Assembly: GCF_002831685.1 (NCBI RefSeq)
Contig: NZ_CP025119.1
Span: 655,001-719,000, forward strand
Reading direction: 5' to 3'
DNA: 64,000 bases
Source: Polaribacter sp. ALD11
GTDB lineage: Bacteria; Bacteroidota; Bacteroidia; Flavobacteriales; Flavobacteriaceae
Shown here: in pieces, positions 302 through 34,553 of the stretch
Layout: each line of letters opens with the position of its first letter
Numbering within the stretch: position 1 is the first letter of the stretch
Made by a program: the position numbers and the translations under genes
Notes under the pieces: generated by a model
The model's input: the letters and a program-made list of their open reading frames with translations, nothing else
Told to the model about the DNA's origin: nothing
The model's database searches: none

Positions 302-336
302 GTTACCACATATTACTAACAAAAATCATAAGACCT

Positions 337-1404
337 ATGAAAATTTCATATTTTACAGCAATTTTAGTAATTTTAACACTTTTAACGAATTGTAAAAAAA
401 ATGAAAATGATTTTTTTATAATACAAGGAAAAATTGATGGTAATTTTAAAAAATATATCTATTTAAAATTCAATAACAAAATTGATAGTACACTGGTCAA
501 AAACAGCGAATTCTCATTTAAAGGAGAAACCGAAAATCCTATTGAAGCTACACTTTACCCTTCCTCTCCTAAATCAAAAAAAATGATGGGAATAGCATCA
601 TTTATGCTAGAAAATAATAAAATTTTTATTTCATTAAAGTATGAGCAATCTGATTTTAGAGGAGAATTAACTGATTTTTTAAAACTAGATAGTATTTCAG
701 GTTCAAAAAGTCAGGAATTAAGTATAGCGTTTAATTCAAAAATGAAAAATACTTTTTATAATGTAAAAGAAGAAAGTATTAGAAAAAAACATCTTTATAG
801 CAATCTGTTAGAGTTTATTAGAACTAATCCAAAATCAATATTAAGTGGAAAAAATCTTGCTTCTTTAAATAGCTTTTACGGATATTTAGACAGTAATCAA
901 ATGGAGAATTTATATAAATTAATTGATACAAATTATCAATCCAAAAAAGATTTAACCACTATTAAATATATTATAAAAAGAAGAAAATTATTAGACATAG
1001 GAAAAATTCCACCTACAGTTATTCTTCCAAATCAAAACAATAAATTAATTGACAACAGATCTATAAAAGCAAAATATATTTTATTTGAATTTTGGGCTTC
1101 TTGGTGCGTTCCTTGCAGACAAACTAACCCTGAATTAAAAAAAGTCTACAATGAATTTAAAAATGAAAAATTTGAAATATTAGGAATTTCCATTGATAAA
1201 GATATTAAAAAATGGAAAAAAGCAATTAATGATGATGATTTAGATTGGATTCAAGTAGTTGATTCTCTCAATACAAGTGCTGAAAAATTTCTACTTAAAG
1301 GAGTTCCTTATAATATTTTACTTGACTCAAGTGGAGTAATTATTAAGATAAATATTAAACCTAAAGAATTGAGTGAATTATTATCGGAAAAATTAAAAAA
1401 ATAA
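337..1404 (+). CDS. TlpA-like thioredoxin-fold lipoprotein
   Basis: Probably an envelope thiol-disulfide protein of the TlpA/ResA type. The start at 337 is preferred over an in-frame upstream start because it gives a proper lipoprotein signal (hydrophobic stretch ending LLTNC), so the protein is 355 residues. The N-terminal half (IIQGKIDG... onward) resembles the DUF4369 domain that often precedes thioredoxin domains in Bacteroidota. The C-terminal third carries the active site WCVPC, with cysteines 257 and 260, followed by a cis-proline region (GVPYNILLD). It is the only gene between the cassette ends GTTACCACAT (302) and ATGTGGTAAC (1406). Substrate unknown. Confidence 0.8.
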   Translation: MKISYFTAILVILTLLTNCKKNENDFFIIQGKIDGNFKKYIYLKFNNKIDSTLVKNSEFSFKGETENPIEATLYPSSPKSKKMMGIASFMLENNKIFISLKYEQSDFRGELTDFLKLDSISGSKSQELSIAFNSKMKNTFYNVKEESIRKKHLYSNLLEFIRTNPKSILSGKNLASLNSFYGYLDSNQMENLYKLIDTNYQSKKDLTTIKYIIKRRKLLDIGKIPPTVILPNQNNKLIDNRSIKAKYILFEFWASWCVPCRQTNPELKKVYNEFKNEKFEILGISIDKDIKKWKKAINDDDLDWIQVVDSLNTSAEKFLLKGVPYNILLDSSGVIIKINIKPKELSELLSEKLKK

Positions 1405-1405
1405 C

Positions 1406-1550
1406 ATGTGGTAACACCGTATATAATTTATTGCTGGCTTCTTGCTTACTTGCGAAAGTCCTCGCGGACTTTCTTTGTCCGTAATTATTTACTAAATTTA
1501 CTAAATTTACTACTAAACCACCGCAACAAACCATATACAACAACGTTGTG
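1406..1550 (+). repeat. attC-like cassette site 1
   Basis: It starts ATGTGGTAAC-ACCGTATA and ends CATATACAACAAC-GTT (1545-1547). The outer boxes are inverted relative to one another, with a central hairpin GAAAGTCC-TCGC-GGACTTTC. The first ten bases are the exact reverse complement of the start of the preceding cassette at 302-311. Confidence 0.8.
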
Positions 1551-1597
1551 TTGTAAGTTGACCCGTCCTGAAATAAGGCTACATAATTTTAAACATT

Positions 1598-1969
1598 ATG
1601 TATAGAAATGACAAAGTAATTAGACGGTATTCAGAACCTTTTAAATTAAAAATTTTAGCCGAACTTACAATCGGAAAACACACAAAGAGCGAACTTTGTA
1701 AACTCTACTCAATTGCACCTACAACAGTAAATGTGTGGATTAAAAAGTACAATCGTAAAGACTTAATGAACACCAGAGTAAAAGTGGAAACAAAAGACGA
1801 AATATCTAGAATTAAAGCGCTTCAAAAAGAGATTGAACAGCTTAAAAAACTACTACTTAAAAAGGATCTCGATGCTATGGTAGAAGAATCCTATTTAGAA
1901 GTAGCTGCAGAAGACCTCGGCTATAAATCTATTGCTGAACTAAAAAAAAAGTTAAGTATAAAGCCTTAA
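1598..1969 (+). CDS. IS3-family transposase OrfA
   Basis: A 123-residue OrfA. The first 55 residues form a helix-turn-helix (KSELCKLYSIAPTTVNVWIKKY region) that should bind the terminal repeats. Residues about 65-90 form a leucine-zipper-like helix (ISRIKALQKEIEQLKKLLLKK). The gene ends shortly after an A9 run (1942-1950), the expected site of programmed -1 frameshifting into OrfB. Its length is normal for the family. Confidence 0.85.
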   Translation: MYRNDKVIRRYSEPFKLKILAELTIGKHTKSELCKLYSIAPTTVNVWIKKYNRKDLMNTRVKVETKDEISRIKALQKEIEQLKKLLLKKDLDAMVEESYLEVAAEDLGYKSIAELKKKLSIKP

Positions 1970-2844
1970 TAAAAGCTAAAGAGAAATCTAAGAGATTTGC
2001 GTCTTTAACGACTATAACCCATTGTTTTGGACTTAAACGTGATGCGTATTATAAATACAAATCTAGAGCTGATAAACGTTTAATACTAGAACAACAGATT
2101 ATAAATATTGTTAGAAAAAGACGCAAATCTCTTCCTAGAGAAGGGGTGCGTAAGCTTACTAAATCTTTAGATATAGATTTTAATAAAGTAAATATTAAAG
2201 TTGGTAGAGATACTTTATTTAATGTCCTTAGAAAACACCAAATGCTAACACTTAGAAGGAAAACTAGTGCCAGAACAACAAACTCATATCATCGATTTTA
2301 TAAATATAATAATATTATAAAAGACTTAGAAATTACAAAACCTAATCAAGTTTGGGTAAGTGATATAACTTACATCAGAACAATTAAAGGCTTTTGTTAC
2401 TTAGCTTTAATAACTGATATGTATTCTAGAAAAATTGTTGGTTACGACCTTAGTGATAGCCTGGAATTAAAAGGATGTGTGAGAGCATTAAATAAGGCGA
2501 TTTATAAAGCTAAAAAAACTTGTACTGAGCCTAGTCGAAGTATTAATGGGCTTATTCATCATTCAGACAGAGGAATACAATATTGCAGTAATCTATACAC
2601 TCAAATATTAAAAAGAAAGAAAATAGATATCAGTATGACTGAAGAAAATCATTGTTACGAAAACGCCATGGCTGAACGTGTAAATGGTATTTTAAAAGAT
2701 GAATTTTATCTCGACCAAACCTTTGATAACGTGGCTCACGCTAAGAGAGCCGCAAAAAATGCAATTAATTTATACAACGAAATAAGATTACACTTATCTT
2801 TAGATTATAAAACACCAAATATGGTATATAAATTATCAGCTTAA
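1942..2844 (+). CDS. IS3-family transposase OrfB (rve integrase domain), reached by -1 frameshift
   Basis: The DDE catalytic part of the transposase. The frame is open from 1939 and its earliest conventional start is at 2146, but conserved coding (a YYKYKSRADKR segment, HTH_21-like) lies upstream of that start. This supports synthesis as an OrfAB fusion by -1 slippage on the A9 run at 1942-1950. Catalytic motifs are visible: VSDITYI, HHSDRGIQY and the glutamate in YENAMAERVNGILKDEFY. The frame is intact to its stop, so the element may still be active. Confidence 0.85.
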   Translation, partial: KKKVKYKALIKAKEKSKRFASLTTITHCFGLKRDAYYKYKSRADKRLILEQQIINIVRKRRKSLPREGVRKLTKSLDIDFNKVNIKVGRDTLFNVLRKHQMLTLRRKTSARTTNSYHRFYKYNNIIKDLEITKPNQVWVSDITYIRTIKGFCYLALITDMYSRKIVGYDLSDSLELKGCVRALNKAIYKAKKTCTEPSRSINGLIHHSDRGIQYCSNLYTQILKRKKIDISMTEENHCYENAMAERVNGILKDEFYLDQTFDNVAHAKRAAKNAINLYNEIRLHLSLDYKTPNMVYKLSA

Positions 2845-2897
2845 TTCAATTTTAACCTGTAGCCATATTTCAGGACAAGACAAGTAATTAAAAAAAA

Positions 2898-3557
2898 ATG
2901 ACGAAATTAATGACAAAAAACATATACCTGAACACAGGATTAGCTTCATTAATAGCATTCATTTTACTGATAATTATGAATTATTCTTGGCCTCAAACTG
3001 ATTATTCTTTGAATGATGTAATACTTGGGAATATAAAACTATCAGAAATTGACAAAGGAAATTTTATTAAATCAATAGGAATAAATTATGCTTTAGATAC
3101 AATCTTTATTTTTTCTTGGATTGGCTCTTGGATTGGATTGTTTTTGCATTTTAAATCTTTAAATATTAAGCTAATTGGAATTTGTTTTGGATTGAGTCTT
3201 TTAGGAGCATTATTAGATATTACAGAAAACTCTATAAGTTTTGGATTACTTGTTGGAAACAATAAGAGCGCTGAAAATATTTTGTTTATACATTCAATTA
3301 TAAGAGATCTGAGTTTTTGGTTTCCAATGATAGCTTCTTTTATCTTAACTATGATAATACCTAAACAAAAAGGAATTGCCATTATATTTCTGAAAATAGT
3401 TGGAATTATTGGTGTTTTATTTGCAATTCTTGGAATGTACATTCAATATTTTTCTGCAATACCTTATTATTGGTTTGGAATTTGGTTTCTTGCTTCAGCA
3501 ATATTTTTATTTAGTAATTATAAAAAAGGAGTTAACCGAATTACTTCTGAAATATGA
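2898..3557 (+). CDS. Multi-pass membrane protein of unknown function
   Basis: 219 residues with about six hydrophobic segments (near residues 14-27, 67-85, 95-112, 137-152, 160-180 and 190-206). I recognise no family. The start at 2898 fits the first methionine, though a second at codon 5 is equally possible. It is the cargo of the cassette whose left end (GTGTTGTAAGT at 1548) pairs with ACTTACAACAC at 3570. An IS3 element sits between that end and the gene, so the native promoter may have been displaced. Confidence 0.55.
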   Translation: MTKLMTKNIYLNTGLASLIAFILLIIMNYSWPQTDYSLNDVILGNIKLSEIDKGNFIKSIGINYALDTIFIFSWIGSWIGLFLHFKSLNIKLIGICFGLSLLGALLDITENSISFGLLVGNNKSAENILFIHSIIRDLSFWFPMIASFILTMIIPKQKGIAIIFLKIVGIIGVLFAILGMYIQYFSAIPYYWFGIWFLASAIFLFSNYKKGVNRITSEI

Positions 3558-3569
3558 AAAATAAAAACT

Positions 3570-3702
3570 ACTTACAACACCTTGTAAAATTAATTGCTTG
3601 TTTTAGCCTACTTACGAAAATCCTCGCGGATTTTCTATTCCGTTTTTATTTACTAAATTTAGTGCTTAAAACACGCAACTAATCTTGTACAAACACGTTA
3701 GC
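3570..3702 (+). repeat. attC-like cassette site 2
   Basis: ACTTACAACACC-TTGTA at the left and CTTGTACAAACAC-GTTAGC at the right are mutually inverted. The central hairpin is GAAAATCC-TCGC-GGATTTTC. Confidence 0.8.
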
Positions 3703-4011: not shown

Positions 4012-4169
4012 TCAAATTCTACTGATTAAGCAACAACATGAATATTAAAAACATATAGTTCTGAAAGAATTGTCCTATTTATGGACAAACCTAATCGTTA
4101 TTTACTGAAACAAATCTAACGACTTACAAAAAGAATTGGTGGAGTTTTTATTTAGTAAATAGGTCTAAT

Positions 4170-4231
4170 TTTTTTTGTTCTTTCTAATTTATATCTATAA
4201 CTTGGTTTTTTTATTAAAATGCTAACTTAAG
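4170..4231 (+). mobile_element. Right-end fragment of an IS110-type element within attC
   Basis: The stretch ending TGCTAAC-TTAAG resembles 7731-7785, the right end of a longer IS110-type element, and joins the attC remainder CCGTATAAAA at the same base. No transposase is left. Confidence 0.5.
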
Positions 4232-4336
4232 CCGTATAAAATTTATTGCTAGTTATCTTCGCAGACTTTCTATTCAGTAATTACTCAATAAATTAGGTGT
4301 ATAAACACGCCACTAAAGAGACACAAATACATTACC
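4221..4336 (+). repeat. attC-like cassette site 3, degenerate
   Basis: GCTAAC...GCCGTATAAAATTTATTGC on the left is typical. The centre and right are eroded: the usual GCAACTAATC is GCCACTAAAG, and the boundary is ATTACCG rather than GTT. It is probably poorly recombinogenic. Confidence 0.6.
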
Positions 4337-4356
4337 GCCAATTTAAAGAACAGATT

Positions 4357-4962
4357 ATGAAACCAATAAAAGCAATCTACAAAACGGTCTTACTTTTCAT
4401 ATTTGCAGCAACTATTTTAAGTTGCAACAATAAACCAAAATCTGATACAAAAAAGAATTCAGAAGTGATGTTGAAGTTATTCAACATAAAAACAACAAAT
4501 CAATTTATTATTGATATTCCTGAGACTCTTAAAGATCAATGTATCATTGATGAATTTGTACAAATTGATTCATTCAACTATGCCAAAGGAACAACAACTA
4601 ATACCAACACTGGAGAAAAAACAACTATCATTCTTGATTACAACAACATTGTTCCAGTAAATCATAATAACAGCAAGAATATTTTTCGCTTTCTTGCTCC
4701 ACTTACTGTATCAGGTTCAGGAACGGGTAAATTCAAATACCTTAGCTTATTTGAGCTAAACTTAAAAACACATAATATTAACCATAGTGACTCTAAATTT
4801 TTAGGAGATAGAATTATTTTAAAAAAAATAGAATATGATGGAGATAAAAAATTAGAAGTTATTATAAAAGCACACAGATTAGAACAATCCTTTTCAGAAA
4901 CTCCAACAGAAACAAAAAAAATAGTCTTTGATATTACGGATGTTATTTTACCCCACAAATAA
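4357..4962 (+). CDS. Hypothetical lipoprotein
   Basis: 201 residues from the start at 4357, chosen because it gives a standard lipoprotein signal (KTVLLFIFAATILSC, cysteine about 23) and excludes residues encoded by the attC-like repeat upstream. The mature part is mostly beta-rich, with the polar segment NTNTGEKTTIILDYNN and no recognisable domain. It is probably anchored in the outer membrane facing the periplasm. It is the single cargo gene between site 3 and the IS110 remnant at 5096. Confidence 0.6.
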   Translation: MKPIKAIYKTVLLFIFAATILSCNNKPKSDTKKNSEVMLKLFNIKTTNQFIIDIPETLKDQCIIDEFVQIDSFNYAKGTTTNTNTGEKTTIILDYNNIVPVNHNNSKNIFRFLAPLTVSGSGTGKFKYLSLFELNLKTHNINHSDSKFLGDRIILKKIEYDGDKKLEVIIKAHRLEQSFSETPTETKKIVFDITDVILPHK

Positions 4963-5095
4963 AGTTAATTATTGAAATAATTTACCAATAAATATATTAC
5001 TACAAAGAATTATAGAATGTTACATTTATTTAAGATAAAACAATTTCAAATGTTTAAAAATCTTAATAATATTGAATTAGAAAACGGATGCTAAC

Positions 5096-5345
5096 AAAGT
5101 ACTGTGGTAAAAACTCATTAATTTTTCACTAAAATACTTCTATAATTACAATCTACGCGAGTTTCAACGACTTAAAATCGAGGTCTAAAAGCCTCATAGA
5201 ACTGTACGAAATCTGTGTAGAAAAAAGAGGGGATTTTCAATGTTAACGAGATCTAAAGTCTCTACGTATATAATAACCTTATTCCTCTCTTTTGTGCTTT
5301 CTGTTTATTTGTCTAATTTCTAATTTAATGAAATACAAACTTAAG
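5096..5345. mobile_element. IS110-type remnant with the transposase gene entirely deleted
   Basis: About 250 bp. The left ~60 bp (AAAGTACTGTGG...CTTCTATAATTA) match the left end at 21,682-21,740, and the right ~180 bp (CTACGCGAGTTTCAACGACT onward) match 22,423-22,617 closely. All transposase sequence between them is missing. It splits an attC: GCTAAC (5090-5095) lies on the left and ACGTGTATA (5346 on) on the right. It is a MITE-like internal deletion derivative of the element at 21,682. Confidence 0.75.
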
Positions 5346-5465
5346 ACGTGTATAAATAATGGCTTGTCCTCACATACTTGAAAAATCCTGCTTGTTTTCC
5401 TCTGGCAAGTACCTGTTTACAAATGTCCTTAAAGAACCACGCACTGCTCATACACGAGACGTTGG
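5346..5465 (+). repeat. attC-like site 4, right part
   Basis: CGTGTATAAATAATGGC pairs with GCTCATACACG before GTTGGGCGCA (5461). The centre differs from the main family. The left box GCTAAC lies at 5090, on the other side of the IS110 remnant. Confidence 0.6.
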
Positions 5466-5569
5466 GCGCAATTAAAAAAATCGATGAAAGTCAATAAAAA
5501 ATACTTGATTGAATGATTATATACAAATCAAAAGATTAAATTTGTCGAATTAAAAAATATAGACATTTT

Positions 5570-6508
5570 ATGAGGCAATTCATTCAAAATAAATATTTTC
5601 TACTCATCTTTATTGCTATAATCTGGGGTTCTTCTTTTATACTCATAAAAAAAATACTACCAGTATTTGACCCATATCAAATCGGAGCTTTTAGGGCAGG
5701 ATTGTCAGGCTTGCTTTTGTCATTTATTGGATTCCCAGCTTTGAAAAGAATGTCAAAAAAGGACGTTTTTTGGATTGCTCTATCAGGATTATTTGGTAAC
5801 TTTTTAGTGGTCTTTATTTTCCCTATTGCACAACAAGGCGTAAGTAGCTCATTGGCAGGCATCATAAATGCATTAGACCCAATATTTACACTCGTTTTAG
5901 GAGCAATTCTGTTTGGAATCAGAAATAAAGTTATTCAATATACTGGAGCAATAATTGGACTTATAGGTGCTATCATTTTAGTTTACTCTTCCAATTCAGG
6001 AAATGGCGAAAATCATCTTTATTATACGGTTTTATTGGTTATAGGTTCGGCACTTTATGCCGTTGCCGCACTTATTATTGAAAAAAAATTACATCACATA
6101 AAATCGACAGATATATCAACAGGTATTTACACTATTTGGATGGTGCCATCTCTTTTAATTTTAAGTTTTTCAGGTTTTTTTACAGACATTGATTACAGCC
6201 AGAATGAAACTTTAACGGCTCTAGGTTATTTAGTCTTTCTAACCGTTATTAGCACTACTTTGGTAATGTTTTTGTTTTTCAAGCTTGTTCAAGATACATC
6301 TGCAGTTTTTGTAAGTACCATTTCACTTTTATTACCAGTCGTTGCGGTAATTTGGGGAATTTTGGACAAAGAGAAATTTACAGTTTGGTATGCAATCGGT
6401 GGATTATTAATTTTGATTAGTGTATATCTCATTAGAGAAAAGAAAAATAAATCATTGGAAAGGAATAAAAACTGCGCACAACAAAGAACTGAGTTAAAAA
6501 GCAACTAA
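5570..6508 (+). CDS. EamA/DMT-family transporter
   Basis: 312 residues with about ten membrane helices in two EamA repeats (FIAIIWGSSFILIKK at the start, and a second repeat from about residue 150). Members of the drug/metabolite transporter superfamily export metabolites or drugs from the inner membrane; the substrate cannot be told from sequence. The last residues and stop lie past the cassette boundary TGCGCACAAC (6473-6482), inside the left end of an IS110 element, so the C-terminal tail CAQQRTELKSN is not native. The cassette starts GTTGGGCGCA at 5461, which pairs 9 of 10 with that end. Confidence 0.85.
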   Translation: MRQFIQNKYFLLIFIAIIWGSSFILIKKILPVFDPYQIGAFRAGLSGLLLSFIGFPALKRMSKKDVFWIALSGLFGNFLVVFIFPIAQQGVSSSLAGIINALDPIFTLVLGAILFGIRNKVIQYTGAIIGLIGAIILVYSSNSGNGENHLYYTVLLVIGSALYAVAALIIEKKLHHIKSTDISTGIYTIWMVPSLLILSFSGFFTDIDYSQNETLTALGYLVFLTVISTTLVMFLFFKLVQDTSAVFVSTISLLLPVVAVIWGILDKEKFTVWYAIGGLLILISVYLIREKKNKSLERNKNCAQQRTELKSN

Positions 6509-7785
6509 TTTCTTCATTAATTTTGCGCATTAATATTCTAGCTTGAAAACCTTATTCTAGCTTTTTTTTATTCATTTTATGAAATATTTTTCCTATTTCG
6601 TTTTTAATACAGATACAAAACTTGCACCATAAGGATTTCCCGATTTTGCAATTGCAAAAGCTTGTTTAAGTAACTTATTAGACACTGCAATTAACGCTAA
6701 CTTTTTACTTTTTCCTTTGTTTGTGATTCGTTCGTAAATTTCTCTACAACCTTTATTTTGCTTGCATGCACTAAAAGAACATAGAAGTAATAAATTCCGT
6801 AACTTTCTGTTTCCCAATTTACTTATTCTACTTCTCCCCCTTACACTGCTTCCAGATTCTCTAATTGTTGGCGTAATTCCTACATAACTACACAATTGTT
6901 TTGCATTTTCAAACTTCTTAAAACCATCTGTTACAACAATTAAAAATAATGCTGTCTTTACACCTATTCTTGGGATAATTTGCAATAAGGTAAGTTGCAC
7001 TTGCTAATCTTCTTTCACTAAAGAAAGTAACTTTTGTTCCATCTCTAAAATCTCTTTATTCAAAATTTTTTTTATTTTGATTAAAGAACGATAAACAAAT
7101 TTTTATAGAATACCTAGCACTTCTTCTCCATGAATTTTTTCTTAGTAGCAGTACGTTTCTTTATTAAACTATCCAACTATCGAAAGAGCTGCAAACACTC
7201 ACTTTTAACGTCTGTTGAAGCACTGTATAATGGAACTTCATTAATAATTCCATAGCCACATATTGCTTTAGCATCACTTTTATCTGTTTTTACTTTGGCT
7301 AATTTCATCTGGATGAAACGCTTTACTGATTATGGATTTACAATGGATACTACTTGATCTTTCTTGTACAGAAATTGTGCTAATCTGTAGTGATAATAAC
7401 CTGCTGCCTCCATAACAACCAGTGTATTATTTTCTAAAATTTTTAGAAACTTAACGAATCCTTTTTCTGTATTTTTAAACTGTAAATGACCTTTCAGACT
7501 GCCATAACAATCAAAAACATCTTTACTAATGTCAATTCCAAAAGTTTCTATATATATATTCATAAGAAATGATTTAAGAAAGAATAACCTACTTTTACTC
7601 ACAACAACTTGAAAACGAGATCTAGGTATCACAGAACTGAACGTGATTTTTAGTAGAAAAGAAAGCCAATTATCAATGTTGTCGATGTCAAAGCTTCACC
7701 GTATATTAGAACCTTAATTCTCTCTTTTATTCTTTCTAATTTATATACTTAAATTTAGTGTTTTATTATAAAATGCTAACTTAAG
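6483..7785 (-). mobile_element. Decayed IS110-family element inserted in an attC
   Basis: About 1.3 kb between TGCGCACAAC (left attC box) and ACGTATAAATTTTATTGC (rest of the attC). The left end AAAGAACTGAG resembles AAAGTACTGTGG of the related copies, and the right end is CTTAAG. It contains a broken transposase. Insertion at the same base inside attC as the other copies resembles the attC-targeting IS1111 branch of IS110. Confidence 0.7.
6593..7632 (-). pseudogene. IS110-family transposase, frameshifted
   Basis: The N-terminal part (start 7632) holds the DEDD-type RuvC-like domain beginning GIDISKDVFDCYG, with VVMEAAGYYHYRLA. The C-terminal part (7000-6593) holds the Transposase_20 helix-hairpin-helix domain (ASYVGITPTIRESGSS-like, LRNLLLLCSFSACK). 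Between 7000 and 7330 recognisable fragments (KADKSDAKAI) appear in shifted frames. The original length was about 330 residues. It is inactive as it stands. Confidence 0.8.
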
Positions 7786-7908
7786 ACGTATAAATTTTAT
7801 TGCTGGTTTTAGCCAATTTACGAAAGTCCTTGCGGACTTTCTATCTGTGATTTATTTGCTAACTTTAGTACTTAAAACAAGCAACAAACCATATACAAAA
7901 ACGTTTCC
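7780..7908 (+). repeat. attC-like cassette site 5, right part
   Basis: ACGTATAAATTTTATTGC pairs with GCAACAAACCATATACAAAAACGTT. The central hairpin is GAAAGTCC-TTGC-GGACTTTC. The left box is at 6473-6482, beyond the IS110 element. Confidence 0.75.
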
Positions 7909-8488: not shown

Positions 8489-10867
8489 ATGAAAAAAATA
8501 TATACTTTAATAGCAGGGATTATGCTTACAGCAAGCATATTTGCACAAGCACCCGAAAAAATGAGCTACCAAGGAGTAGTAAGAGATGCAAGCAATGCCT
8601 TAGTAACCACACAAGCCGTAGGAATGCAAATTAGCATTTTACAAGGTGGTGCTACAGGAACACCAGTTTATGTAGAGACACAAACACCTACAACCAATTC
8701 TAACGGTTTATTAAGTTTAGAAATAGGAACAGGAACTTTACTAAGCGGCGATTTCACCACCATTAACTGGGCAAACGACACTTATTTTATTAAAACCGAA
8801 ACCGACCCTACAGGCGGAACAAACTATACCATTACTGGTACAACACAACTAATGAGTGTACCTTATGCCTTGCACGCTAAAACAGCAGAAAGTATAACAG
8901 GAACAATAAACTACACCGAAACCGACCCTATTTTTAGAGCATCTATTGCTAATACTATTACTGCAATTGATACAGCTAACTGGAGAAACCATACCGTTGA
9001 TACCGATACACACATTGACTCTACAGGAGTAGCCAACTTAGGTTTTAATGCAGGAGGAATAATTACCGAAACCGACCCTGTTTTTAGAGCATCTATTGCT
9101 AATGGTATTACTGTAATTGATACAGCTAATTGGAATAACCATACCGTTGATACCGATACCCATATTGACTCTACAGGAGTAGCCAACTTAGGTTTTAATG
9201 CAGGAGCAATAATTACCGAAATCGACCCTGTTTTTAGAGCATCTATTGCTAATGGTATTACTGCAATTGATACCGTAAATTGGAACAACAAACTATCTAC
9301 CGAAATAGATGGCTCTGTTACCAACGAAATACAAGTTTTAACCATTAGCAACGACACACTTTTTTTAAGCAAAGGAGGGCTTGTAAAACTACCTGCAGCT
9401 GCTGTAGTTTTTAGTGGTAATTATGCCGATTTAACAAACATACCTGCTTACATTGCTGATGGTGATGATAATACACAACTAAACGAAACACAAGTAGATG
9501 CCTTTGTAGCCAACAATGGTTATTTAACCACAGAAGTTGATGGTTCTGTTACCAACGAAATAGAATTACCAACAGGTGGTACTAACGGACAAGTACTAAA
9601 AACTGATGGTGGTGGCAACTATGCTTGGGTAAACCAAACTACAGATACTGATACAAACACGCAGCTAAACGAAACACAAGTAGATGCCTTTGTAGCCAAC
9701 AATGGTTATTTAACCACAGAAGTTGATGGTTCTGTTACCAACGAAATAGAATTACCAACAGGTGGTACTAACGGACAAGTACTAAAAACTAATGGTAGTG
9801 GCAACTATGCTTGGGTAAACCAAACTACAGATACTGATACCGACACACAACTAAACGAAACACAAGTAGATGCCTTTGTAGCCAACAATGGTTATTTAAC
9901 CACAGAAGTTGATGGTTCTGTTACCAACGAAATAGAATTACCAACAGGTGGTACTAACGGACAAGTACTAAAAACTAATGGTAGTGGCAACTATGCTTGG
10001 GTAAACCAAACTACAGATACTGATACCGACACACAACTAAACGAAACACAAGTAGATGCCTTTGTAGCCAACAATGGTTATTTAACCACAGAAGTTGATG
10101 GTTCTGTTACCAACGAAATAGAATTACCAACGGGCGGTACTAACGAACAAGTACTAAAAACTGATGGTAGTGGCAACTATGCTTGGGTAAACCAAACTAC
10201 AGATACTGATACCCATATTGATTCTACAGGAATTGCCAACTTAGGTTATATGGCAGGAATGCATACTGTAAATACAGATGCTCAAACCCTTACCGTATCA
10301 CAAACAGGCGATACCTTAACAATAAGTGGAGGAAACTATGTATTAGTTCCTGGTATTAGTTTATTAAATCATCCTCACGCTCAAGTAATACAAATAGGTG
10401 ACTTTTATGCAGGTGGAGTTGTTTTTTGGTTAGACGGTAATGGCGGAGGTTTAGTAGTATCTGTTGCAGACCAAAGCACAAGTGCTACATGGGGATGTAA
10501 CGGAATAATTACTGGATCTGATAGTACAGCTATTGGTACGGGGGCACAAAACACAGTAGATATAGAAGCTAGTTGTGCTACAGCCGGAACAGCTGCAGAT
10601 ATTTGTGCCAACCTTACATTAAATAGTTATAACGATTGGTTTTTACCGAGCAAAGATGCCCTGCAAATTATATATGATAATAGAGTAACGATTGATGCTA
10701 CAGCAGCAAATAATTCAGGGACTAGTTTATCACTAGATAGATATTGGAGTTCTACGGAGTTCAATAGTAATAATGCTTGGACCCATAGTTTCAATAACGG
10801 CGTCTCAAAAATTTACCTTAAGCCCGATAACTATACTTGTAGAGTGAGAGCCGTCAGAGCTTTTTAA
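8489..10867 (+). CDS. Large repetitive surface protein with fibre-like repeats and a DUF1566-type C-terminus
   Basis: 792 residues. There is a signal peptide (MKKIYTLIAGIMLTASIFAQ), then an N-terminal domain (MSYQGVVRDASN) common at the start of Bacteroidota surface proteins. Three imperfect ~52-residue repeats (ETDPVFRASIANGIT...DTDTHIDSTGVANLGF) follow. Then come four near-identical 62-residue repeats (LNETQVDAFVANNGYLTTEV...GQVLKTDG) encoded by 186-bp tandem units starting near 9479, 9665, 9851 and 10,037. The last ~150 residues (GGVVFWLDGNGGGLVV ... NDWFLPSKDAL ... YWSSTEFN ... RVRAVRAF) look like the DUF1566 C-type-lectin-like fold. It resembles phage tail fibres and adhesins. A binding role is inferred. 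Confidence 0.75.
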   Translation: MKKIYTLIAGIMLTASIFAQAPEKMSYQGVVRDASNALVTTQAVGMQISILQGGATGTPVYVETQTPTTNSNGLLSLEIGTGTLLSGDFTTINWANDTYFIKTETDPTGGTNYTITGTTQLMSVPYALHAKTAESITGTINYTETDPIFRASIANTITAIDTANWRNHTVDTDTHIDSTGVANLGFNAGGIITETDPVFRASIANGITVIDTANWNNHTVDTDTHIDSTGVANLGFNAGAIITEIDPVFRASIANGITAIDTVNWNNKLSTEIDGSVTNEIQVLTISNDTLFLSKGGLVKLPAAAVVFSGNYADLTNIPAYIADGDDNTQLNETQVDAFVANNGYLTTEVDGSVTNEIELPTGGTNGQVLKTDGGGNYAWVNQTTDTDTNTQLNETQVDAFVANNGYLTTEVDGSVTNEIELPTGGTNGQVLKTNGSGNYAWVNQTTDTDTDTQLNETQVDAFVANNGYLTTEVDGSVTNEIELPTGGTNGQVLKTNGSGNYAWVNQTTDTDTDTQLNETQVDAFVANNGYLTTEVDGSVTNEIELPTGGTNEQVLKTDGSGNYAWVNQTTDTDTHIDSTGIANLGYMAGMHTVNTDAQTLTVSQTGDTLTISGGNYVLVPGISLLNHPHAQVIQIGDFYAGGVVFWLDGNGGGLVVSVADQSTSATWGCNGIITGSDSTAIGTGAQNTVDIEASCATAGTAADICANLTLNSYNDWFLPSKDALQIIYDNRVTIDATAANNSGTSLSLDRYWSSTEFNSNNAWTHSFNNGVSKIYLKPDNYTCRVRAVRAF
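9463..10212 (+). repeat. Four 186-bp in-frame tandem repeats
   Basis: The unit start CTAAACGAAACACAAGTAG recurs at 9479, 9665, 9851 and 10,037, exactly 186 bp apart. Units are nearly identical in DNA as well as protein, which suggests recent expansion or gene conversion with the copy at 12,206. Confidence 0.9.
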
Positions 10868-11224: not shown

Positions 11225-13585
11225 ATGAAAAAAATATATACTTTAATAGCAGGGATTATGCTTACAGCAAGCATATTTGCACAAGTGCCCAAAAAAATGA
11301 GCTACCAAGCCGTAGTAAGAGATGCAAGTAATACCTTAGTAAGCACACAAGCCGTAGGAATGCAAATTAGCATTTTACAAGGCAGTACCCCTGTTTATGT
11401 AGAGGCACAAACACCTACAACCAACGCTAACGGTTTAGTAAGTTTAGAAATAGGAACAGGAACTTTACTAAGTGGCGATTTTACCACCATTAACTGGGCA
11501 AACGACGCTTATTTTATTAAAACCGAAACCGACCCTACAGGCGGAACAAACTATACCATTACCGTTACAACACAACTAATGAGTGTACCTTATGCCTTGC
11601 ACGCTAAAACAGCAGAAAGCATAACAGGAACAATAAACTACACCGAAACCGACTCTGTTTTTAGAGCTTCTATTGCTAATACTATTACTGCAATTGATAC
11701 AACTAATTGGAATAACCATACCGTTGATACAGATACACACATTGACTCTACAGGAGTAGCCAACTTAGGCTTTAATACAGGAGCAATAATTACCGAAACC
11801 GACCCTATTTTTAGAGCATCTATTGCCAATGGTATTACTGCAATTGATACAGCTAATTGGAATAACCATACCGTTGATACCGATACCCATATTGACTCTA
11901 CAGGAGTAGCAAACTTAGGTTTTAATGCAGGAGGAATAATTACCGAAACCGACCCTGTTTTTAGAGCATCTATTACTAATGGTATTACTGCAATTGATAC
12001 CGTAAATTGGAATAACAAACTATCTACCGAAATAGATGGCTCTGTTACAAACGAAATACAAGTTTTAACCATTAGCAACGATACACTTTTTTTAAGCAAA
12101 GGAGGGCTTGTAAAACTACCTGCAGCTGCTGTAGTTTTTAGTGGTAATTATGCCGATTTAACAAACATACCTGCTTACATTGCTGATGGTGATGATAATA
12201 CACAACTAAACGAAACACAAGTAGATGCCTTTGTAGCCAACAATGGTTATTTAACCACAGAAGTTGATGGTTCTGTTACCAACGAAATAGAATTACCAAC
12301 AGGTGGTACTAACGGACAAGTACTAAAAACTGATGGTGGTGGCAACTATGCTTGGGTAAACCAAACTACAGATACTGATACAAACACGCAGCTAAACGAA
12401 ACACAAGTAGATGCCTTTGTAGCCAACAATGGTTATTTAACCACAGAAGTTGATGGTTCTGTTACCAACGAAATAGAATTACCAACAGGTGGTACTAACG
12501 GACAAGTACTAAAAACTGATGGTGGTGGCAACTATGCTTGGGTAAACCAAACTACAGATACTGATACAAACACGCAGCTAAACGAAACACAAGTAGATGC
12601 CTTTGTAGCCAACAATGGTTATTTAACCACAGAAGTTGATGGTTCTGTTACCAACGAAATAGAATTACCAACGGGCGGTACTAACGGACAAGTACTAAAA
12701 ACTGATGGTAGTGGCAACTATGCTTGGGTAAACCAAACTACAGATACTGATACCGACACACAACTAAACGAAACACAAGTAGATGCCTTTGTAGCCAACA
12801 ATGGTTATTTAACCACAGAAGTTGATGGTTCTGTTACCAACGAAATAGAATTACCAACGGGCGGTACTAACGGACAAGTACTAAAAACTGATGGTAGTGG
12901 CAACTATGCTTGGGTAAACCAAACTACAGATACCGATACCGATACCCATATTGATTCTACAGGAATTGCCAACTTAGGTTATATTCCAGGAGTACATACC
13001 GTAAATACCGATGCACAAACCCTCAAAGCATCACAAACAGGCGATACATTAACTATAAACGGAGGAAACTCTGTATTAATTCCTGGTATTAGTTTATTTA
13101 ACTATCAACCACAAATACAAATAGGTGAATTTTATGCAGGTGGTGTTATTTTTTGGTTAGACGGTAATGGCGGGGGACTAGTAGTATCTATTGTAGACCA
13201 GAGCACACGTGCACAATGGGGATGTCACGGAACACACCTTGCTGGAGCAGAAGGTAAAGCTATTGGTACAGGGGCACAAAATACAGCAGATATAGAAGCT
13301 GGTTGTACTAGATACGCAACAGCGGCAGATCTTTGTGCCAACCTTACATTAAATGGTTATAACGATTGGTTTTTACCTAGTATAGACGAACTGCAAGCTA
13401 TATTTGATAATAGAGCAGCTATTAATGCTACAGCAATAAGTAATTTAGGTACTAGTCTCGGAAGTTACTATTGGAGTTCTACTGAGGACTATAATTATTG
13501 GGCTTTGTTGTACCATTTCCGTGCCGGTAGTGTATCCGAAGATAAGTTTGAAAAGCATGGTGTGCGAGCCGTCAGAGCTTTTTAA
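11225..13585 (+). CDS. Second large repetitive surface protein, paralogue of the 8489 gene
   Basis: 786 residues with the same layout as its neighbour: signal peptide, N-terminal MSYQAVVRDASN domain, three ~52-residue repeats, four 62-residue repeats (DNA units starting at 12,206, 12,392, 12,578 and 12,764), then the DUF1566-like C-terminus. The C-terminal domains differ far more than the repeats (SIDELQAIFDNR and YYWSSTEDYNYWALLYHFR here), as if the tips diversified for different ligands while the stalk was homogenised. It is followed by a strong hairpin at 13,688. Confidence 0.75.
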   Translation: MKKIYTLIAGIMLTASIFAQVPKKMSYQAVVRDASNTLVSTQAVGMQISILQGSTPVYVEAQTPTTNANGLVSLEIGTGTLLSGDFTTINWANDAYFIKTETDPTGGTNYTITVTTQLMSVPYALHAKTAESITGTINYTETDSVFRASIANTITAIDTTNWNNHTVDTDTHIDSTGVANLGFNTGAIITETDPIFRASIANGITAIDTANWNNHTVDTDTHIDSTGVANLGFNAGGIITETDPVFRASITNGITAIDTVNWNNKLSTEIDGSVTNEIQVLTISNDTLFLSKGGLVKLPAAAVVFSGNYADLTNIPAYIADGDDNTQLNETQVDAFVANNGYLTTEVDGSVTNEIELPTGGTNGQVLKTDGGGNYAWVNQTTDTDTNTQLNETQVDAFVANNGYLTTEVDGSVTNEIELPTGGTNGQVLKTDGGGNYAWVNQTTDTDTNTQLNETQVDAFVANNGYLTTEVDGSVTNEIELPTGGTNGQVLKTDGSGNYAWVNQTTDTDTDTQLNETQVDAFVANNGYLTTEVDGSVTNEIELPTGGTNGQVLKTDGSGNYAWVNQTTDTDTDTHIDSTGIANLGYIPGVHTVNTDAQTLKASQTGDTLTINGGNSVLIPGISLFNYQPQIQIGEFYAGGVIFWLDGNGGGLVVSIVDQSTRAQWGCHGTHLAGAEGKAIGTGAQNTADIEAGCTRYATAADLCANLTLNGYNDWFLPSIDELQAIFDNRAAINATAISNLGTSLGSYYWSSTEDYNYWALLYHFRAGSVSEDKFEKHGVRAVRAF
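12190..12940 (+). repeat. Four 186-bp in-frame tandem repeats, second set
   Basis: Same unit as at 9463, with spacing again exactly 186 bp and near identity to the first set. Confidence 0.9.
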
Positions 13586-13675: not shown

Positions 13676-13792
13676 AGTCTATTTTAATTTTTTTGAGTTG
13701 AGCTAAAAGCTCAACTCAAAAAAATCTTTACACTTATGGCGTTATCACATACTTTGTCTATAGACTTATACAGTTTTCTGAGTTAGTTAAGC
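13676..13792. mobile_element. Possible MITE-like insertion in an attC, containing a 17-bp-stem hairpin
   Basis: TAACA (13,672-13,676) and GCCGTATAAAATTAATTGC (from 13,791) would be adjacent in an uninterrupted attC. About 115 bp separates them, including the perfect inverted repeat TTTTTTTGAGTTGAGCT / AGCTCAACTCAAAAAAA (13,688-13,724). The hairpin could also terminate transcription of the 11,225 gene. Assignment as a mobile element is inferred from position only. Confidence 0.4.
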
Positions 13793-21672: not shown

Positions 21673-21681
21673 GTGGATAAC
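21673..21681 (+). repeat. Left box of attC-like site 10, split by an IS110-type element
   Basis: GTGGATAAC is one mismatch from the complement of the cassette start GTTACCCAC (17,728). The rest of the site continues at 22,618. About 145 bp before the box (21,527-21,672) hold no gene. Confidence 0.65.
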
Positions 21682-22617: not shown

Positions 22618-22732
22618 TTAATTGCTAGTCCTCGCCTACTTACGAAAACCCTCGCGGATTTTCTATTCGGTTTTTATTTACTAAATTAGATGCCTAAAAC
22701 ACGCAAAAAACCATATACATCAACGTTAGCAA
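22618..22732 (+). repeat. attC-like site 10, right part
   Basis: CCGTATAAAATTAATTGC pairs with GCAAAAAACCATATACATCAAC-GTTAGC (22,725). Confidence 0.75.
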
Positions 22733-25299: not shown

Positions 25300-25420
25300 G
25301 TTGCCAACACCGTGTATGACTAATTCTTTTATCGTCTACTTACAAAAATACTCGCAGATTTTCTATTCAGTTTTTATTTATTAAATTCGGTATTCAATCT
25401 GAATGATGAGCAATATTCTT
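25300..25420 (+). repeat. attC-like cassette site 11, right end eroded
   Basis: GTTGCCAACACCGTGTAT on the left is typical and the centre has AAATACTCGCAGATTTTC. No clear TACAAACACGTT box follows. GAGCAATATTCTTGGTAAAC at about 25,409 may be its relic. Confidence 0.6.
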
Positions 25421-25484
25421 GGTAAACAATCTATAGAGAAATTATTCTTTACTTTTGAATCTGACAAAAAAGAACTTCTAATTT

Positions 25485-27292: not shown

Positions 27293-27424
27293 TTTAAAAC
27301 ACCGTATATAATTTATTACTGGCTCCTTGCCTATTTGCGGAAATCCTAGCGGACTTTCTTTGTCGGTAATTATTTACTAACTTTACTACTAAACTAACGT
27401 CACAAAACTTATAGAACAACGTTA
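27293..27424 (+). repeat. attC-like cassette site 12
   Basis: TTTTAAAACACCGTATATAA on the left, CACAAAACTTATAGAACAAC-GTTAGCC (27,421) on the right, centre GAAATCCTAGCGGACTTTC. Confidence 0.75.
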
Positions 27425-29201: not shown

Positions 29202-29388
29202 GGCTAACAATGTGTAAAAATAATAAGGGTTTTAGTGCTTAACCCAAAGTTTAGTGTTTTTAACAAAGTCCGCAGAAATTACAATTTTGCGGGCTATTTT
29301 TTAAAATAAAAATTGTAAATTTCACTAAGCAATAAACTGAATATTAACTGCTTTTTTAATACCTTACTATTCTTACACAAAACCGTTA
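29202..29388 (+). repeat. attC-like site 13, second (long) repeat family
   Basis: 187 bp. GGCTAACAATGTGTAAAAAT pairs with ACTATTCTTACACAAAACC-GTTACC (29,385). The interior holds AATTTACAATTTTTGC-type inverted repeats. It is closely related to 31,876-32,064 and differs in its centre from the commoner family. GGCTAAC is the exact complement of the cassette start GTTAGCC at 27,421. Confidence 0.8.
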
Positions 29389-29747
29389 CCAACATTCTGC
29401 CCCTTGTACTTTCCTGAAATAGGTTGACTAAAAATTAAACACTTAATTATAGTCACTTATGAAAACACAAAAAGAACCCTGGCGAAAATAAACGCACAAA
29501 ATGGAATTATAATAATTTAAGAACCTAGTTTTAAGACAACCTGCTGAAGTACATTTAAATCCTTCTGTTCTTCAATTTGTAAACGTCTAATCTCTTTCAA
29601 TAAAGTACTATAGTACAGTTTATGCAGACATACAAACAATATCTATTTTATGTAAATAGTAACCTAAAAAACTAAATAAACTATAAAAAAGTTGTCTTAT
29701 TAAGAAAAATAATAACAAAATGCAATATATTTGATGGTATAATAAAC
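29389..29747. mobile_element. IS3-family debris plus conserved sequence abutting a cassette boundary
   Basis: 29,405-29,460 (TTTCCTGAAATAGGTTGAC, then a start codon and MKTQKEPWRK) looks like the left end and first codons of an IS3-family element. 29,520-29,605 on the - strand reads as an OrfA-like zipper (LLKEIRRLQIEEQKDLNVLQQ). Neither is complete. 29,620-29,747 is related to 180-301 and runs directly into GTTGCCAAC at 29,748. Confidence 0.5.
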
Positions 29748-29775
29748 GTTGCCAACAAGCTAAAAAACGAACATA

Positions 29776-31243: not shown

Positions 31244-31376
31244 GTTGGCAACACCGTATATAATTTATTGCTGGCTTATTGCCTACTTACGAAAGTCCTC
31301 GCGGACTTTCTTGGTGGGTAATTATTTACTAAATTAGTTGCTTAAACCACGCAACAAACCATATACAAACACGTTG
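31244..31376 (+). repeat. attC-like cassette site 14
   Basis: GTTGGCAACACCGTATATAA on the left, GCAACAAACCATATACAAAC then AC-GTTGTGTG (31,373) on the right, with a clean central hairpin GAAAGTCC-TCGC-GGACTTTC. The best-preserved example of the main family. Confidence 0.85.
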
Positions 31377-31875: not shown

Positions 31876-32064
31876 CACACAACAAGGTGTAAAAATAATA
31901 AGGGTTAAGTATTATGCTCAAAGTTGGTGCATATTAACAAAGTCCGCCAAATTTACAATTTGACGGTTAAAAGAAAAATAACGGTAAAAATTGTAAATTT
32001 GGCTAAGTGCTAAACCAAAAAGTAAATACATTTTAATCCCTTACTATTCTTACACAAATCGTTG
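31876..32064 (+). repeat. attC-like site 15, second (long) repeat family
   Basis: 189 bp. CACACAACAAGGTGTAAAAA pairs with TACTATTCTTACACAAATC-GTTGTAG (32,061). The centre has an inverted repeat around CCAAATTTACAATTT and AAATTGTAAATTTGG. Same family as 29,202. Confidence 0.8.
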
Positions 32065-32086
32065 TAGTGCATTAAAACCAAACTTT

Positions 32087-32653
32087 ATGGAAATAGGAAA
32101 TAAATTGATAAAACTTAATTGGAAATTTAGAATTGTGTCAGCAATTTTAACTGGACTTTTATTTATTGGAATTATGTGTCTTATGGATTATTTCTTAGAT
32201 GGAGAATTTCAAAGTCTGAATAGTTACTTGTTTCAAGGAATATTTTTCGGGATTTTTATGGGAATTGGATTTCCGTATGTAACGCAAAAATTCGGAACAA
32301 AATTCACTTCTAAAATCGGAAAAAACATTAAACCTGAATTGGCACAAGACGAAAATATTGAAATTGAAGGTCCCGCAAACTTATTCCGTGGAATGGAAGG
32401 TGTTGGTGGAAAATTGTTTTTAACTGATAAAAAAGTAGTTTTTAAATCTCATAAAATAAATATCCAAAAAGGACAAACTGATATTCTTTACGAGAATATT
32501 ACGGAAATAATAAAAAGAAAGACAGCTAAAATAATTGACAACGGAATTCGAATAAAAACCAATGGAGGAAATGAATTTGATTTTGTTGTTAATGAACGAG
32601 AAAAGTGGATTGAAAAGCTGAACGAAAAAATAACGCACTACAACACCGTATAA
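32087..32653 (+). CDS. Membrane protein with C-terminal GRAM-like domain
   Basis: 188 residues. Two membrane helices (about 16-33 and 48-66) precede a soluble C-terminal PH/GRAM-like domain (EGPANLFRGMEGVGGKLFLTDKKVVFKSH ... ILYENITEIIKR ... GNEFDFVVNEREKWI). GRAM domains bind lipids or proteins at membranes. The stop codon lies in the attC: the last residues THYNTV come from GCACTACAACACCGTATAA. Cassette ends GTTGTAGTGC and GCACTACAAC are exact 10-bp complements. Confidence 0.7.
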   Translation: MEIGNKLIKLNWKFRIVSAILTGLLFIGIMCLMDYFLDGEFQSLNSYLFQGIFFGIFMGIGFPYVTQKFGTKFTSKIGKNIKPELAQDENIEIEGPANLFRGMEGVGGKLFLTDKKVVFKSHKINIQKGQTDILYENITEIIKRKTAKIIDNGIRIKTNGGNEFDFVVNEREKWIEKLNEKITHYNTV

Positions 32654-32767
32654 AATTAATTGCTTGCTTTTTGCTCACTTACGAAAATCCTCGCGGATTT
32701 TCTTTGTCAGTAATTATTTATTAACTTTATTGCTAAACCACGCAACTAACCTTGTACAAACACGTTG
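32635..32767 (+). repeat. attC-like cassette site 16
   Basis: GCACTACAACACCGTATAAA on the left, GCAACTAACCTTGTACAAAC then AC-GTTGTAAAA (32,764) on the right, central hairpin GAAAATCC-TCGC-GGATTTTC. It overlaps the 3' end of the preceding gene. Confidence 0.85.
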
Positions 32768-32880
32768 TAAAAAACTACGGAATTGAGCCAGAAATAAATA
32801 AGTTATTAAAGTTAACTTTTGGTTTTTTCTAATTTATAAAACTAAATACTGAAATAAAAGTGAATTTTAAAACGCATAAG

Positions 32881-33558: not shown

Positions 33559-33593
33559 CTTTCAAGTGCAAACTACAAAGTCTATGCTTTTCT

Positions 33594-33762
33594 GTTAACA
33601 TTTGGTTTTTAAAGTTAGTAAAACTAAATTCTAAAAAAGGTGTGAATTTACTCAAACTCTGAAAATCAAATTGCGGAATTCTTACTCAAATCTGAATTTT
33701 GAAAATATAAAAAATGGAAAATATAAATTATCGAAAATTGAAAAGGAAAAATTAAATACGCA
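33594..33762 (+). other. Duplicate of the upstream leader plus gene debris, probably a fused decayed cassette
   Basis: 33,594-33,655 resembles 32,811-32,872 (GTTAACATTTGG against GTTAACTTTTGG, then TTTTT...AAAACTAAAT...GTGAATTT). No intact gene follows before the attC at 33,763. This suggests that two similar cassettes became fused and the second lost its gene. Confidence 0.45.
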
Positions 33763-33895
33763 TTTTACAACACCGTGTATTAAAAATTGCTATATTAATA
33801 CTTAACCAAAAGTAGTTGCATTTTTACTCACTTCAATTTTCCTACGGAAAATAGCCGTTCATTAAAAACGCAACTTTCAATACACAAACACGTTA
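33763..33895 (+). repeat. attC-like site 17, third centre type
   Basis: TTTTACAACACCGTGTATTA on the left and GCAACTTTCAATACACAAACACGTTAAC (33,892) on the right pair well. The centre CAATTTTCCTACGGAAAATAG differs from both other families. TTTTACAAC is the exact complement of the cassette start at 32,764. Confidence 0.8.
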
Positions 33896-34154
33896 ACTTT
33901 CATTGTCGCTAATTTTTCTCAAAAACTAAAAAGAGAATAAAATACTGAATCTATTATTGGAAAAAATATTGCTTTTAGCCAAAAAGAAAGTTCTGAATCA
34001 ATTACAAAGTAATTTATTTCTTTACTTTACTGTTTAGAAAATAGTTGCTATAAAACGAGAACTTCTCTCCTATTTATTTAATTTATTTTTGAAATGCAAA
34101 ATAAATATTGTAAATAAAAATAAATAATTAAAATACGATAAATAAGAAAACATT
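33896..34154. other. Gene-free leader of the small membrane protein cassette
   Basis: AT-rich with no plausible reading frame. I see no firm promoter match and no repeat. Confidence 0.4.
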
Positions 34155-34451
34155 ATGAAAAACAAAAGTAGAAAATTAAATATCATAGCTATAATAACTT
34201 TATTAATTCTACTATTTATTTGTGCATTAATTATTCAAGATAGTCCTTTGAGTTGGGCACTTTTACCAGGAGATTCAGTAATATTATTTCCTTTATTATT
34301 TTTTATCCCTTTAATATTGTCTGTATTATCTTTAATGAACAAGAAAAATATATTTGCTAAAATAATACTTAGTATTTCAATAATATTACTAATTATAACA
34401 GGCATATTCGCTCTTTATGCATTGGCTTTAGGAGCAGCTTGGAAAAATTAA
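34155..34451 (+). CDS. Small membrane protein, three helices
   Basis: 98 residues with three hydrophobic segments (about 9-27, 34-57 and 70-93) and a short basic N-terminus, so an inner-membrane protein with few exposed residues. No family recognised. It lies between site 17 and a degenerate site 18. Small hydrophobic proteins are frequent integron cargo and could be immunity or toxin components, but nothing here proves it. Confidence 0.6.
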   Translation: MKNKSRKLNIIAIITLLILLFICALIIQDSPLSWALLPGDSVILFPLLFFIPLILSVLSLMNKKNIFAKIILSISIILLIITGIFALYALALGAAWKN

Positions 34452-34454
34452 AAA

Positions 34455-34553
34455 GGTAACAAGTCGCTAAGAATAGCTATATCTAAGAAATATTTGTCAT
34501 AATTTTAATTAAGTGCTTAAAACACCTAACAAACCATACATAAAACCATTAGC
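34455..34553 (+). repeat. attC-like site 18, degenerate; last recognisable site
   Basis: GGTAAC on the left, GTGCTTAAAACACCTAACAA and CCATACATAAAACC-ATTAGC (34,548) on the right. The central hairpin is gone and the final GTT is ATT. Confidence 0.55.

Follow-up and report, generated by a model that had tools for sequence, protein, structure and literature searches.

The closest described relatives of the locus reported here are sedentary chromosomal integrons, such as those of Vibrio, which combine a tyrosine recombinase (IntI) with an adjoining attI site and an array of co-oriented, mostly one-gene cassettes. Surveys take an insertion in the integrase, the IntI patch (I2), as a defining trait (PMC2426708, PMC9668308) and count Bacteroidota among the integron-bearing phyla (PMC2426708, PMC9668308, PMC8618304). 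For Bacteroidetes, the IntegronFinder 2.0 paper mentions a first survey with only empty loci (In0) and then one complete integron, that of Salinibacter ruber (PMC9024848), and a Tenacibaculum genome screened with the same program was reported to contain none (PMC10013915). Here we describe an array at positions 302-34553 of a 64,000-nucleotide stretch of the Polaribacter sp. ALD11 chromosome (NZ_CP025119.1, positions 655,001-719,000; hereafter the window), which is very probably a satellite cassette array of a Bacteroidota-type chromosomal integron with a patchless recombinase. We found no description of such arrays in Bacteroidia in the open literature, subscription papers and preprints lying mostly outside the scope of the search, and this widespread Bacteroidota integron kind is apparently undescribed.

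Besides the general layout, the Bacteroidota system shares with sedentary chromosomal integrons sites that fold as bottom strands, AAC and GTT ends, a CGTT, an asymmetric central spacer, repeated cassettes and some defence-related cargo. It differs from them in a recombinase that lacks the IntI patch and carries an extra N-terminal domain, in a recombinase gene that points towards its own array, in a stem that is mostly free of bulges over the first 16-17 bp and has conserved bottom-strand G.T pairs, and in complementary ends that are specific to the cassette and extend about 10 nt past AAC/GTT. Its behaviour appears integron-like and the patch is missing, so that on sequence grounds it is a variant of the integron and not an IntI integron.

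The original prediction for this DNA, made from the letters of the window, had named about 18 related attC-like repeats running from AAC to GTT, and this is borne out. Complete sites measure about 114-135 nt, two of a longer type 182-183 nt, and all are on the + strand. A covariance model (R1) trained on 12 of the window's own sites gave 16 plus-strand matches at E<=1, which, together with two sites of the long type (29206-29387 and 31881-32063, sharing 74% identity and outside R1), make up the 18 or so; 15 of the matches have E<3e-4, 12 of these 15 being training rows, and the single minus-strand match (3469-3583, E 0.37) is at chance level. R1 is mainly a sequence profile: for the first model RNAalifold found no more than 6 pairs. 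The probable reason is a stem resting in part on A.C pairs, which are G.T on the bottom strand. The independent check, also proposed in the prediction, was to run the model on the complete genome (3.57 Mb, one contig, here C1). This gave 130 matches at E<=1, of which 103 lie in one other array of 110 kb, 15 in the window and 12 are scattered, with all 118 array matches on the + strand. An even spread among housekeeping genes with a failure to fold, which would speak against an array, is not what we found. Simple box motifs were rejected as evidence, as they are barely over chance (28 occurrences of an 11-mer box against 18.9 expected); it is the long site that carries the evidence.

The larger array, which we call the main array, lies about 500 kb from the window at C1:1192965-1303035, and begins directly after the gene of a 385-amino-acid (aa) tyrosine recombinase (C1:1191207-1192364, +). 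The GTT of its first cassette is 33 bp past the recombinase stop codon and is preceded by the attI-like TCAATATATTTGATTTTATATAACCC. A search for tyrosine integrase genes with the intI-specific insertion near the window array had been proposed; the recombinase exists, at the head of the main array, and the insertion is missing from it. The 103 main-array cassettes have a median length of 705 bp. Their longest open reading frame (ORF, >=50 aa) is on the + strand in 57, on the − strand in 1 and absent from 45, which gives the + strand in 57 of 58 coding cassettes; near-identical non-coding cassettes in 22 and 9 copies supply much of the 45. The first of these, about 578 bp long, occurs 22 times (as 21 distinct sequences) from C1:1193654 onward (loci L042-L047), and the second, of about 525 bp, nine times; they may be promoter carriers or spacers. 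Two weak R1 matches in this region (L044:1943 and L044:2419, E 0.59) were excluded from the site counts. PADLOC matches among 53 main-array proteins (of 54 listed representatives, one more that straddles two loci being omitted) comprise a type IIG restriction-modification protein, KwaB and models named MkoA and PD-Lambda-2; they are single-gene matches and do not establish a working system. A stretch of 14.5 kb within the array (C1:1213995-1228498) has no counted sites and holds a different tyrosine recombinase of 446 aa (L004); it is probably an inserted mobile element.

A cassette inserted as a unit by crossover within GTT would have, after its start GTT and before its end AAC, bases derived from one and the same molecule. 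In 95 of 102 main-array cassettes, the six bases after the start GTT are the reverse complement of those before the AAC of the cassette's own end. The mean match is 5.84/6, against 2.67 on random re-pairing (s.d. 0.13; the largest of 10,000 was 3.19), and the two flanks of one site match at only 2.75/6. The 102 cassettes are neighbouring pairs and include the seven non-perfect ones, in which there is a large insert, a missed site or a single mismatch. All 102 have A at position 8 after GTT, and its partner before AAC is C in 93/102, forming an A.C mismatch on the top strand and a G.T pair on the bottom strand. In the decayed window array, 16 cassettes, whose pairs were picked by eye, score 4.63/7 compared with 2.48 on shuffling (0 of 10,000), and all 16 have A at position 8. 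Beyond AAC/GTT, the median pairing is 10 nt between the ends of one cassette and 1 nt between the flanks of one arrayed site, and the full stem is predicted to form solely in the free circle. From the end matching, the repeated cassettes and the cassettes common to other species, we infer that cassettes are exchanged as units. Two main-array cassettes recur at 92-93% identity in a second species of the genus (L086), and the window cassette at 32061-32766 has 111 bp at 96% in common with a Subsaximicrobium locus (L103).

These data also bear on the idea that the repeats are a non-autonomous mobile element or a repetitive extragenic palindromic (REP)-like family, lying between genes by chance. 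Insertion sequence (IS) elements adjoin several window sites and 12 sites are scattered, as such a family might have it, but 118 of the 130 sites stand in two co-oriented arrays, the complementarity joins the flanks of each gene and not the two ends of the repeat, and the linkage to one recombinase family is conserved. This idea is already contradicted, and we give it practically no credence.

R1 missed the sites of a Chryseobacterium plasmid (best E 1), and a sequence-independent signature was therefore used, namely GTT N7 A ... C rc(N7) AAC within 120-4000 bp, where rc is the reverse complement. The plasmid carries a relative of the recombinase at 40.6% identity, together with a site type of its own and a cassette that matches, GTTATACGAT...ATCGTATAAC. 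A test with k=7 and no A/C pair is symmetric by construction and uninformative on strand. The strict signature occurs 71 times forward and once in reverse in the main array, and 0/1 in its flanks. Downstream of the recombinase in 20 relative loci the counts are 149/2, with at least one at each locus, and across 80 named loci they are 82/1 downstream (286 kb) versus 4/8 upstream (644 kb). It was found in 32 of the 45 named loci having at least 1.2 kb downstream and, upstream, in 4 of 78. As controls, the short flanks of 32 canonical IntI loci gave 0/0, and 120 kb of the same genome, beyond the arrays or at their edges, gave 1 forward and 3 reverse, so the background is non-zero. Around 22 Xer loci (85 kb, 1.5-kb flanks) there were 0 forward and 0 reverse. 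Xer proteins are encoded in the genome, and host XerC and XerD could in principle move the cassettes; this is highly improbable, given the empty Xer flanks and a main array that starts at the patchless gene. The argument from Xer loci is a weak one, because Xer genes need not adjoin their sites.

Of 102 loci examined, 41 have a first cassette that starts no more than 600 bp after the recombinase stop, 35 of these 41 at 23-108 bp. TATAAC directly precedes the first GTT in 18 of the 41, and in 10 of 13 in this genome and its relatives (L079-L098). From this position and motif we infer that an attI site adjoins the recombinase gene. Of 80 loci, 53 have a contig end less than 4 kb downstream of the recombinase and 12 have one that close upstream, an excess of downstream breaks that repeats would cause.

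The recombinase (at 1e-50) is present in 205 of 396 Bacteroidia genomes, a count of the gene and not of arrays. Among relatives of the strain it is patchy (28 of 59 genomes at 1e-60), the named relatives nearest to the recombinase of this genome being mostly Polaribacter. Same-genus genomes hold a median of 30.5 sites with the recombinase (n=24) and of 6 without it (n=11; p=6.5e-5), the top values per genome being at least 59. Relatives of the recombinase were also seen in metagenome-assembled genomes labelled Nitrospirae, WOR-3 and Undinarchaeales (L164, L174 and L176), which suggests misbinning or transfer.

The recombinase belongs to the tyrosine family (PF00589, 130 bits), with the R, K, HxLR and H positions invariant in the alignment. 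The I2 insertion is missing in all 110 members measured, of 111 patchless loci. The spacing from KDR to HxLRHS is 64-66 aa in these proteins (n=110) and 67-77 in 24/24 Xer; in IntI, where the motif was found in 16 of 33, it is 106-107 in 14 and 71 in two, the latter probably a motif inside the patch. An integrase insertion that is "not fully conserved" in an integron-like subgroup is mentioned in one paper (PMC8138268), so that patchless relatives had already been seen as proteins. In a tree of three groups with no further outgroup (46 patchless sequences, random among those >330 aa plus two chosen), patchless, IntI and Xer proteins each fall on one side of a branch (SH-aLRT 83, 100 and 100), and which two are sisters is not resolvable. 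XerA and archaeal XerC-like proteins (4a8e, 5hxy) rank with the best matches of the catalytic part, both in fold and in sequence, and have no patch either. In contrast to them, the Bacteroidota recombinase is linked to cassette arrays, has the extra N-terminal domain and has a C-terminal (N/S)PLD, as in IntI1.

Among the 85 unique sites of the main array (of 103), the bottom strand is more stable than the top in 83 (mean -16.9 versus -13.9 kcal/mol; shuffle control on 40 of the 85). The folding of bottom strands, a check set out in the original prediction, succeeded in part for the window, where five of eight sites clearly surpass their shuffles in stability (z below -2) and three do not; the less decayed main-array sites fold more clearly. 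Over 16 stem pairs in 93 unique sites, with spacers selected for maximal Watson-Crick pairs, there are 1190 Watson-Crick pairs, 242 bottom-strand G.T, 7 top-strand G.T and 49 others. The wobbles are at stem positions 7, 8 and 12 in 86, 58 and 86 of the 93 sites, and, being fixed on the bottom strand, they make that strand fold better. In classical attC sites the L stem has two to three extrahelical bases, among them a conserved G in L'' and a T 6-8 nt further on (PMC2727003). In the Bacteroidota sites the uninterrupted stem has a median of 17 bp and reaches at least 16 bp in 59 of 85 unique sites, so that in those 59 the extrahelical bases have no counterpart within the first 16-17 bp. A C precedes GTT in 84 of 85 sites, matching the conserved G that, in the same source, follows AAC on the bottom strand of most classical attC sites (PMC2727003), and the spacers are asymmetric (3/6) in 78 of 93. 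The sites thus have the imperfect palindrome, the AAC...GTT ends and the folding of the bottom strand that characterise attC. An integron-like array of a non-classical type, as first proposed, is upheld by the complementary cassette ends, the linked recombinase with its attI-like site and the hairpins biased to the bottom strand.

Double-stranded, Xer-like recombination, in which the palindrome would be two inverted binding sites and no single strand would fold, is a further reading that we regard as unlikely. It accords with the missing I2 and with closest solved relatives that include archaeal Xer proteins as well as IntI, but such recognition needs neither a median 17-bp unbroken stem with wobbles almost exclusively on one strand nor complementary cassette ends.

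The likeness to classical attC raises another reading, a canonical integron in which a patch-bearing IntI elsewhere in the genome, or formerly present, moves the cassettes. The AAC/GTT ends, the CGTT, the 3/6 spacers and the folding of the bottom strand are all common to classical sites, and IntI1 is reported to recombine a Polaribacter-phage attC (PMC9892861). This reading is nonetheless very unlikely. None of the six PF00589 proteins of the genome reaches the TIGR02249 integron-integrase cut-off, the best being the patchless one (202.5 of 265 bits), and canonical IntI occurs in only 2 of 396 Bacteroidia genomes; in a draw from the whole phylum it exceeded the cut-off in 107 of 392 genomes, 106 of them in other classes. 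Around 10 canonical IntI genes from sister classes (198 kb) the strict signature is unbiased (4/4), and the phage matches to R1 are weak (best E 1e-6). In the Polaribacter phage P12002L (L101), several such matches (E 1e-6 to 7e-4) were seen, some near methyltransferase genes. As these may differ from the authors' attC1/attC2, the IntI1 assay was not counted as support.

Returning to the patchless integron, the sequence shows a patchless IntI-like recombinase gene, then an attI-like site within tens of bases and co-oriented cassettes; each cassette ends in a hairpin site of about 125 nt, and its start (GTT N7 A) is complementary to its end (C N7' AAC). The following mechanism may be proposed. 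The recombinase would cut within GTT on the folded bottom strand of the site and would join cassettes in circular form to attI or another site. Bottom could be told from top strand by the fixed G.T wobbles, which are A.C mismatches on top and would replace the extrahelical bases of classical attC, and the N-terminal domain, possibly HARP-like, might recognise the branched hairpin in place of the I2 helix, which is missing. With about 10 additional pairs, the extended R stem would close only in the free circle, and thereby integration would be favoured over excision. For the N-terminus, the Pfam HARP model (PF07443) scores 14.1 bits (E 0.035) on L002, below the gathering score of 25, and is weak in 2/10 and 2/15 members, with a best E of 4e-4. 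A model of the 77-aa N-terminus of the relative L102, with a predicted local distance difference test (pLDDT) score of 92.2, has the SMARCAL1 HARP domain (4o66) as its top PDB match (probability 0.93, E 0.035, root-mean-square deviation 7.3), and against PDB sequences the domain had no relative (best E 0.085).

It seems somewhat probable that about half of the class Bacteroidia carries this second kind of integron, with folded single-strand recombination lacking I2, a HARP-like domain and G.T wobbles replacing I2 and the extrahelical bases, and long complementary ends making free circles better substrates. I2 and single-strand recombination are described as confined to integron integrases, with no known intermediates (PMC7790495). 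A recombinase without a domain thought essential for cassette capture, in a natural family with hairpin arrays, would make the origin of single-strand recombination directly testable and, at 205 of 396 genomes, integron-type gene capture a major feature of Bacteroidia.

Several points weigh against this interpretation. The case is built from sequence: recombination, an excision circle and cleavage were not observed. The recombinase lacks an insertion whose deletion is reported to abolish IntI1 function (PMC7790495), and the HARP match falls short of ordinary significance. The training sites of R1 came from the window, and three of the eight window sites fold no better than shuffles (z -0.7 to -1.7). 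All seven bases match in only 62 of 102 main-array cassettes, the strict signature is weak by itself in the window (three matches, one probably chance) and it is absent from 13 of the 45 named loci with at least 1.2 kb downstream. Of the 11 same-genus genomes without the recombinase, nine still hold sites, in lower number.

The window array resembles a cluster of attC sites lacking integron integrases (CALIN), having sites and cassettes and no family recombinase gene nearby: its 15-18 sites exceed the two required, no remnant of the patchless recombinase was found by tblastn in 164 kb (window plus flanks), and the nearest PF00589 gene, 28 kb rightwards, encodes a 432-aa recombinase with no TIGR02249 match. 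It differs from CALIN in keeping two attI-like motifs, in the recombinase-bearing head elsewhere in the genome and in sites of the Bacteroidota type. The window array thus presents itself as a decayed satellite, a CALIN-like array without a recombinase gene; its own gene would have been lost or never present, and decay would have proceeded via IS insertions.

At the head of the window array, with no recombinase gene adjoining, is the attI-like motif CAATATATTTGATTGTATAATAATTGTT (277-304, +), 75% identical over 56 nt to the main-array attI region after the recombinase stop. The cassette beginning at its GTT ends with a matching N7 and is the best preserved of the window (302-1547, +; GTTACCACAT ... 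ATGTGGTAAC; 7/7 end match, strict signature). Its gene (289-1404, +) encodes a DUF4369 and thioredoxin-like protein by Pfam, and its attC-like site is at 1413-1547 (126.2 bits with R1). The second attI-like motif, CAATATATTTGATGGTATAATAAACGTT (29723-29750, +), lies in a region that is 72.6% identical to the main attI region (84 nt compared) and 87.7% identical to that of the first motif (81 nt); the cassette beginning there has an end match of 6/7. The cassette at 32061-32766 (+; GTTGTAGTGC...GCACTACAAC) is intact, with the strict signature, a GRAM-domain gene (32087-32653, +; Pfam) and a site at 32642-32766 (135.6 bits).

Like these two sites, the following ones are training rows of R1: 3576-3699 (142.9 bits), 7782-7905 (132.8 bits, an IS end at its 5' side), 13788-13909 (120.8 bits), 14759-14872 (102.7 bits, a 10-nt deletion in the 5' arm), 16358-16483 (119.8 bits, a displaced 5' half at 16257), 17607-17730 (124.3 bits), 22604-22727 (129.1 bits, split by an IS110-type element with the displaced 5' half near 21678), 27298-27423 (122.1 bits), 31250-31375 (143.9 bits) and 33769-33894 (84.6 bits). 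Outside the training set are the sites at 4228-4333 (60 bits, an IS end in place of the 5' end), 5342-5463 (37.7 bits, divergent, an IS end at the 5' side) and 25306-25423 (51.4 bits, a degraded 3' half). The last site, at 34460-34550, is weak (21.3 bits, E 0.3) and alone not over chance. Of the two long-type (type B) sites, that at 29206 has a 17-bp uninterrupted stem.

The genes between the window sites are unrelated to one another; 17 of 20 proteins scanned had a Pfam match at 1e-5. They include thioredoxin-like, EamA transporter, M23 peptidase, flavodoxin/YjgF, acyltransferase, AraC regulator and PAP2 genes, and further a chromate transporter, a serine hydrolase (beta-lactamase fold family), LytTR, a CPBP protease, Crp-like regulators, a cupin and GRAM. 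All genes between sites had been thought to lie on the + strand; this holds for the sites and fails for the genes, as pieces of IS110-type transposase at 6593-7632 and 21715-22395 are on the − strand.

IS110/IS1111 elements are known to target attC. In the window, where IS110- and IS3-type insertions interrupt the array and cut several sites, copies or ends of IS110-type transposase elements adjoin or split sites at 4165-7800, 16295-16360 and 21678-22600, with the left end TAACAAAGTACTGTGG at 5092 and 21678 and the right end at 5297, 16320 and 22566. The pattern looks as if the cassette site were targeted, the IS110-type transposases sitting at Bacteroidota sites as passengers. Between two sites, at 8489-10867 and 11225-13585, are tandem paralogous ORFs of about 790 aa with internal repeats of 186 bp and 150 bp. 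Outside the array, at 36180-36600, repeated copies of a attgcgaggcacagcttgttgcgaggtacg-like intergenic sequence were observed.

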